From assembly GCF_031764535.1 (NCBI RefSeq), contig NZ_CP134499.1:3100001-3164000 (forward strand): DNA of 64,000 bases, written 5' to 3'. Of the stretch, positions 42,424 through 51,625 are shown in pieces. The stretch comes from Pseudomonas sp. SG20056 (lineage in GTDB: Bacteria > Pseudomonadota > Gammaproteobacteria > Pseudomonadales > Pseudomonadaceae). The notes below the pieces were generated by a model, which made no database searches, had not been told where the DNA came from, and worked only from the letters and a program-made list of their open reading frames with translations. The number at the start of each line of letters is the position of its first letter. The first letter of the stretch is position 1. The position numbers were made by a program, and so were the translations under genes.

Positions 42424-42499
42424 TGGTGCCGGAGACAGGAATCGAACCTGCGACCTTCGCGTTACGAGTGCGCTGCTCTACCGACTGAGCTACACCGGC
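42424..42499 (-). tRNA. tRNA-Thr (anticodon CGU)
   Basis: A 76-base cloverleaf with encoded CCA. D arm GCUC/GAGC, T loop UUCGAUU, and anticodon loop CUCGUAA with U33 and CGU anticodon reading ACG codons. Two pairs are unusual: U6-U67 in the acceptor stem and A31-C39 at the top of the anticodon stem, with 27-43 G-A as in E. coli. The gene is single, on the opposite strand to the nuclease. Confidence 0.93.
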
Positions 42500-50718: not shown

Positions 50719-50932
50719 GGGTATACCTCGACAAAAAATCAGCAATACAGCGACATAGATTACCGGTTCTGCCGGCTAAAAGCCCGAACGGCCTGGCCAA
50801 CGGCGTCTGTAGCCTGGTTTGCAACCGTACGGCAGGAGGTAGAAACAACGCAGATCGACGCCTCCCGTCAGACCACTACGCATCTACGGCATCGCGCCGG
50901 TAGAATGCGCGCCGCCATTCAATTCCGGGTGG

Positions 50933-50964
50933 CATGGGTTCCCTAACCCCATTCAGCAAAAAGG
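50933..50964 (+). ncRNA. Candidate preQ1-I riboswitch aptamer before yhhQ
   Basis: P1 pairs AUGGG (50934-50938) with CCCAU (50948-50952). The loop UUCCCUAAC keeps U after P1 and UAAC before CCC, matching the Thermoanaerobacter preQ1-I aptamer, whose C15 pairs with preQ1. An A-rich tail ends in AAGG (50961-50964), which is also the Shine-Dalgarno of yhhQ seven bases on. Pseudoknot P2 would pair loop CC with this GG, hiding the ribosome site when preQ1 binds. Confidence 0.78.
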
Positions 50965-50971
50965 TTCCGTC

Positions 50972-51625
50972 ATGCTAATTACCGCCCCTCAGCGCCTGCG
51001 TAATGCACTTATCGCACTGGTGCTGTTTCATATCCTGATCATCATCGCCAGCAACTACCTGGTGCAGCTGCCCATCACTCTGTTTGGCTGGCACACCACC
51101 TGGGGCGCGTTCAGCTTCCCGTTTATCTTCCTGGCCACCGACCTGACCGTACGCCTGCTCGGCAAACAGGCGGCGCGCCGGGTGATTGCCCGGGTGATGC
51201 TGCCGGCGCTGCTGATTTCCTACATCGTCTCGGTGCTGTTTCAGGAAGCCAGCTTTCGCGGCTTCGGCGCCTTGCTGGAGTTCAACGAGTTCGTGCTGCG
51301 CATTTCCATCGCCAGCTTCCTCGCCTACGTGCTGGGACAGTTTCTCGATATTCAGGTATTCGACCGCCTGCGCCAGCTGTCGCTGTGGTGGGTAGCGCCA
51401 ACCGTGTCGACCATCTTCGGTAACCTGCTTGACACCTACGCGTTCTTCTCGGTGGCGTTCTGGAACAGCAGCAACCCGTTTATGGCCGAGCACTGGGTGG
51501 AAATCGCCACAGTGGATTACGGGGTCAAACTGGTGGTCAGCCTGCTGCTGTTCGTACCGCTCTACGGCATGCTGCTCAATGCCATACTGCGCATTATGAC
51601 CGCCACCACGGCGAAGACGGCCTGA
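50972..51625 (+). CDS. yhhQ: Queuosine-precursor transporter YhhQ
   Basis: A 217-residue inner-membrane protein of six helices, importing 7-cyano-7-deazaguanine (preQ0) or 7-aminomethyl-7-deazaguanine (preQ1) for tRNA queuosine. FGWHTTWGAFSFPFIFLATDLTVRLLG, FRGFGALLEFNEFVLRISIASFLAYVLGQFLDIQVFDRLR and PTVSTIFGNLLDTYAFFSVAFW are diagnostic. The AAGG ribosome site lies within a probable preQ1-I aptamer. The riboswitch upstream supports the transport role. No other queuosine gene is adjacent. Confidence 0.95.
   Translation: MLITAPQRLRNALIALVLFHILIIIASNYLVQLPITLFGWHTTWGAFSFPFIFLATDLTVRLLGKQAARRVIARVMLPALLISYIVSVLFQEASFRGFGALLEFNEFVLRISIASFLAYVLGQFLDIQVFDRLRQLSLWWVAPTVSTIFGNLLDTYAFFSVAFWNSSNPFMAEHWVEIATVDYGVKLVVSLLLFVPLYGMLLNAILRIMTATTAKTA

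Follow-up and report, generated by a model that had tools for sequence, protein, structure and literature searches.

A probable class I type III preQ1 riboswitch overlapping the Shine–Dalgarno sequence of yhhQ in Pseudomonas sp. SG20056

The yhhQ leader of Pseudomonas sp. SG20056 contains a 32-base element, at 50933–50964 of the window (the whole 64,000-nucleotide stretch analysed), that we read with a probability of about 95% as a class I type III preQ1 riboswitch mediating translational feedback by preQ1. The original prediction had described the yhhQ Shine–Dalgarno sequence as embedded in a preQ1-I riboswitch; near-identity with the E. coli yhhQ leader and conservation among relatives make this the best reading, which is refined here to type III. 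The element is real but unremarkable within a subtype that is already known, and is not novel. That subtype was described from 293 sequences, almost exclusively from Pseudomonadota (PMC11625349), and for its E. coli yhhQ representative a 2.3 Å co-crystal structure with preQ1, a preQ1 affinity of 58 nM and in-cell switching have been reported (PMC10622847).

Read directly, positions 50925–50980 hold the element CAUGGG UUCCCUAAC CCCAU UCAGC AAAAAGG, followed by a UUCCGUC spacer and the yhhQ ATG at 50972, which leaves 7 nt between the Shine–Dalgarno sequence and the start codon. The P1 strands AUGGG and CCCAU, the UAACCC segment (50944–50949) and the A-rich tail ending in AAGG (A run at 50958–50962, then GG at 50963–50964) all lie where they had been predicted. 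So do the proposed U6 and C15 equivalents, U50939 and C50947, which delimit the loop; the specificity cytosine is C14 in crystal numbering and C15 in wild-type E. coli numbering. The features of the leader and gene are:

50901..50906, + strand: putative −10 box TAGAAT of the yhhQ promoter, from a hexamer conserved in leaders
50934..50938, + strand: P1 5′ strand AUGGG, from sequence and compensatory change among relatives
50939, + strand: L1 U, the U6 equivalent of the predicted ligand pocket; invariant, from alignment with the E. coli yhhQ leader (numbering of PMC10622847)
50940..50944, + strand: UCCCU pyrimidine loop, the predicted anti-Shine–Dalgarno; identical in the crystallised E. coli RNA
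C50942-G50964, C50943-G50963 and U50944-A50962, + strand: predicted P2 pairs, from identity with the crystallised E. coli RNA
50945..50947, + strand: L2 AAC, with C50947 as the probable specificity base for preQ1, by homology to E. coli C12-A13-C14 (crystal numbering)
50948..50952, + strand: P1 3′ strand CCCAU, from sequence and the held-out covariance model alignment
50953..50957, + strand: variable linker UCAGC, differing in length and sequence among relatives (GGUUAAUC in E. coli)
50958..50964, + strand: A-rich L3 and Shine–Dalgarno sequence, AAAAAGG; tail invariant among relatives, assignment after the structure paper
50972..51625, + strand: yhhQ, encoding a 217-residue preQ0/preQ1 transporter (COG1738; NCBIfam NF008406, TIGR00697; Pfam PF02592)

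The E. coli yhhQ leader reads AUUGGG UUCCCUCAC CCCAAU GGUUAAUC AAAAAGG UACAAU AUG, and the same linker is given for the E. coli RNA in PMC10622847. In that RNA, U6, C14 and A27 contact the ligand and P2 consists of U11-A28, C10-G29 and C9-G30 (PMC10622847); all of these contact residues and P2 partners have equivalents in the window element. In crystal numbering, G5 corresponds to 50938, U6 to 50939, U7–U11 to 50940–50944, C12-A13-C14 to 50945–50947 (A-A-C here), C15 to 50948 and A27-A28-G29-G30 to 50961–50964 (A50961, A50962 and G50963–50964, in that order). The two leaders share the gene, the position, the loop UUCCCUNAC, the GGG/CCC core of P1, the Shine–Dalgarno-bearing AAAAAGG tail and the P2 partners. 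They differ in the first base of L2 (A here, C in E. coli), in the linker (5 nt, UCAGC, here and 8 nt in E. coli) and in the outer pairs of P1, which are A-U then U-A here and A-U, U-A, U-A in E. coli.

Several traits of type III are present: a P1 of 5–6 bp with a GGG/CCC core (AUGGG/CCCAU, with covariation in relatives), a short pyrimidine-rich loop at 50939–50947 where UU follows P1 and AC precedes the P1 3′ strand, an A-rich tail ending in AAGG with letters complementary to the loop CCU (P2), and a position upstream of yhhQ in Pseudomonadota. The placement in type III is a sequence-based assignment that rests on the UUCCCUNAC loop and on AAGG as its predicted 3′ partner; in this type the Shine–Dalgarno sequence takes part in P2 pairing and touches the ligand through its first A (PMC10622847). 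With type II (T. tengcongensis, B. subtilis) the element shares the predicted H-type pseudoknot, the AC before the P1 3′ strand and the A-rich tail. However, types I and II have a longer, purine-containing P2 loop and only partial burial of the Shine–Dalgarno sequence, or a terminator, whereas the loop in the window is all-pyrimidine up to L2.

The covariance search proposed with the original prediction came back empty, and a search with a type III model was positive. RF00522 (PreQ1), the preQ1-I family of the Rfam library, did not match the window, whether at the gathering threshold (39 bits) or at E 10; it matched none of 38 genomes (this one and relatives), and among 14 control genomes it matched B. 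subtilis only. It likewise gave no match, even at E 10, in the E. coli yhhQ leader (L063:9100-9300) that contains the crystallised RNA. Because the E. coli element is missed as well, the negative in the window reflects a blind spot in the model's coverage and is not evidence against the element, and RF00522 was rejected as a test of it. The only Rfam match within the window is a tRNA gene at 42427–42499 on the − strand. By contrast, a held-out model of 32 positions (R1), made from 17 elements of which none came from the Pseudomonas group, scored the window element at 47 bits (E 9.8e-9; next match E 3.5), and this was its sole match in the genome (genome-wide E 6.9e-7). Across 119 genomes of the genus, 19 matched this model, at one place each, and all 19 have a close yhhQ orthologue. 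The twentieth genome with a close yhhQ orthologue (G095, locus L018) falls outside the model's matches and carries the motif with a longer linker.

A motif of only 32 nt could in principle arise as a chance resemblance in a GC-rich leader; we regard this as vanishingly improbable, and conservation has already refuted it. The strict pattern, GGGTTCCCTNACCC-(4-24)-AAAAGG, had a single match in the window, against 0 in 100 shuffles, and was found in 7 of 369 genomes of the class, where the reversed-pattern control gave 0. With P1 left free, a looser pattern had its single match in the 4.48 Mb genome at the 50933–50964 element, and its reverse did not match. Against chance also stand the single match per genome and the motif's presence in 20 of 20 orthologues: a protein search found 20 close YhhQ orthologues in the 119 genomes of the genus, and in all of them the motif lies a few bases upstream of the start codon.

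In a wider set, the motif was found at 48 of 54 yhhQ orthologue loci from the genus, order and class, chosen by protein alone and without regard to the motif (42 strict, 5 with a GAG/CUC variant and 1 with a long linker), and was absent from the other 6. In the GAG/CUC loci (L037, L198, L200, L202 and L209) the P1 core GGG/CCC is replaced in a compensatory manner that strict type III patterns miss. Three close yhhQ orthologues of one genus (L188, L190, L192) lack the element and share another conserved leader, AUAAAUCGAUUAAAAAACC. P1 and the A-rich tail are separated by long linkers in L189 (more than 40 nt; the long-linker locus among the 54), L191, L094, L195 and L137, and the L191 linker contains what looks like a GC-rich hairpin of its own. 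An extra C in the P1 3′ strand (ACCCCCA) occurs in Vibrio and others (L076, L091, L104, L107, L149, L028, L033, L102), which would give many Vibrio elements either a one-base bulge or a shifted L2.

The association with yhhQ is near-exclusive. A pattern scan of named genomes, in a collection of about 85,000, returned at least 119 stretches, 118 of them long enough to judge, and among the matches listed 113 of these 118 lay immediately upstream of yhhQ. The other five among the matches listed (three Rhizobium, one uncultured bacterium and one Oscillospiraceae) look like chance matches. Hosts among the matches listed included Enterobacterales, Vibrio, Shewanella, Aeromonas, Halomonas, Pseudomonas, Pasteurellaceae and Marinomonas, with a few beta-proteobacteria and two Desulfobulbales-type MAGs.

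P1 is backed by strong compensatory change. Among 116 distinct hairpins, pair 2 was G-C in 111 and A-U in 5; pair 4 was U-A in 76, A-U in 21 and C-G in 14; and pair 5 was U-A in 31, A-U in 27, G-C in 27 and C-G in 5. The pairing observed at these three pairs was reached by 0 of 2,000 shuffles of the 3′ letters. Pair 6 was unsupported in the same column-shuffle test of the 116 hairpins, and pairs 1 and 3 were invariant, partly because the search pattern fixed both. When 17 elements were aligned without gaps, the score for covariation was 0.208, against 0.056 when shuffled and 0 to 0.137 in slid registers; this alignment was restricted to 32-nt elements, as MAFFT put the P1 3′ strand in the wrong place when linkers of variable length were included. 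P2 did not vary in the 17-element alignment, so covariation is silent on it; such invariance is expected if the Shine–Dalgarno sequence and the pocket fix the P2 letters.

We infer the ligand, the pocket contacts and translational repression from the E. coli RNA, and other functions for the same leader were weighed against this. The fold could be the same and the physiological ligand preQ0, or both precursors, in which case the switch would report total importable precursor. E. coli YhhQ prefers preQ0 for import (PMC5372724), and an earlier in-line probing study, as cited in PMC10622847, suggested preQ0 binding. However, the E. coli type III RNA loses affinity ~138-fold for preQ0 (PMC10622847) and the pocket letters in the window equal those of E. 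coli except for C12, which is A in L2; we regard this reading as improbable. Still less probable is that the leader is a plain hairpin or a site for protein binding and has no ligand-related function. The silence of RF00522 would fit this, but the loop and tail letters outside P1 do not change across gamma-proteobacteria and some beta-proteobacteria and coincide with pocket residues of the solved RNA, and the motif is tied to one gene.

A nested minimum free energy fold of the leader, by a method that cannot represent pseudoknots or ligand, favours another helix that includes the start codon (−10.2 kcal/mol). This helix pairs 50930–50936 (UGGCAUG) with 50971–50977 (CAUGCUA) and is not clearly conserved. 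Its stem length was reached by 37 of 200 partner-swapped leaders and thus does not stand above the swaps, while its duplex energy lay below all but one of 200 partner swaps, with relatedness uncontrolled. It is unlikely that the unbound leader in this species is held in such a second state, with the P1 5′ strand paired to the start-codon region; if it were, the switch would pick one of two folds, each in contact with the site where the ribosome lands, and the choice would not be one of open versus closed.

The yhhQ product scored 346.3 bits with NF008406 (cut-off 252) and 190 bits with TIGR00697 in profile searches, which also assigned Pfam PF02592, and the gene upstream of yhhQ, on the opposite strand, encodes a DEAD-box helicase. 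YhhQ is needed for preQ0/preQ1 salvage in E. coli (PMC5372724). Since queF, queC and tgt are all present in the genome, preQ1 is made as a normal intermediate. In all 25 Pseudomonas-group yhhQ leaders a hexamer (TAGAAT, TACAAT or TACACT) with a GC-rich stretch after it lies 36–44 nt before the loop start. A canonical −35 box was looked for in the yhhQ leader and none was found. The hexamer suggests a transcription start near 50913, which would place the riboswitch ~20 nt from the 5′ end.

In the type III riboswitch proposed here, scarcity of preQ1 would leave the AAGG Shine–Dalgarno sequence free and YhhQ, the preQ0/preQ1 importer, would be translated. When plentiful, preQ1 would stack on P1 and be read by C50947, with U50939 and A50961 as the equivalents of the residues surrounding the ligand, and would lock an H-type pseudoknot in which C50942-C50943-U50944 pairs with A50962-G50963-G50964. 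The closed pseudoknot would bury the ribosome-binding site and lower translation, a feedback in which enough preQ1 means no import. Repression would be translational because the Shine–Dalgarno sequence is part of both the pocket and P2; no terminator-like site was found in the yhhQ leader.

These findings support the view that a Pseudomonas-type genome regulates its import of queuosine precursors by feedback. As the Rfam PreQ1 model is blind to both type III elements tested, annotation that relies on Rfam will probably overlook such elements, and a small type III covariance model such as R1, with its 32 positions, recovers them cleanly.
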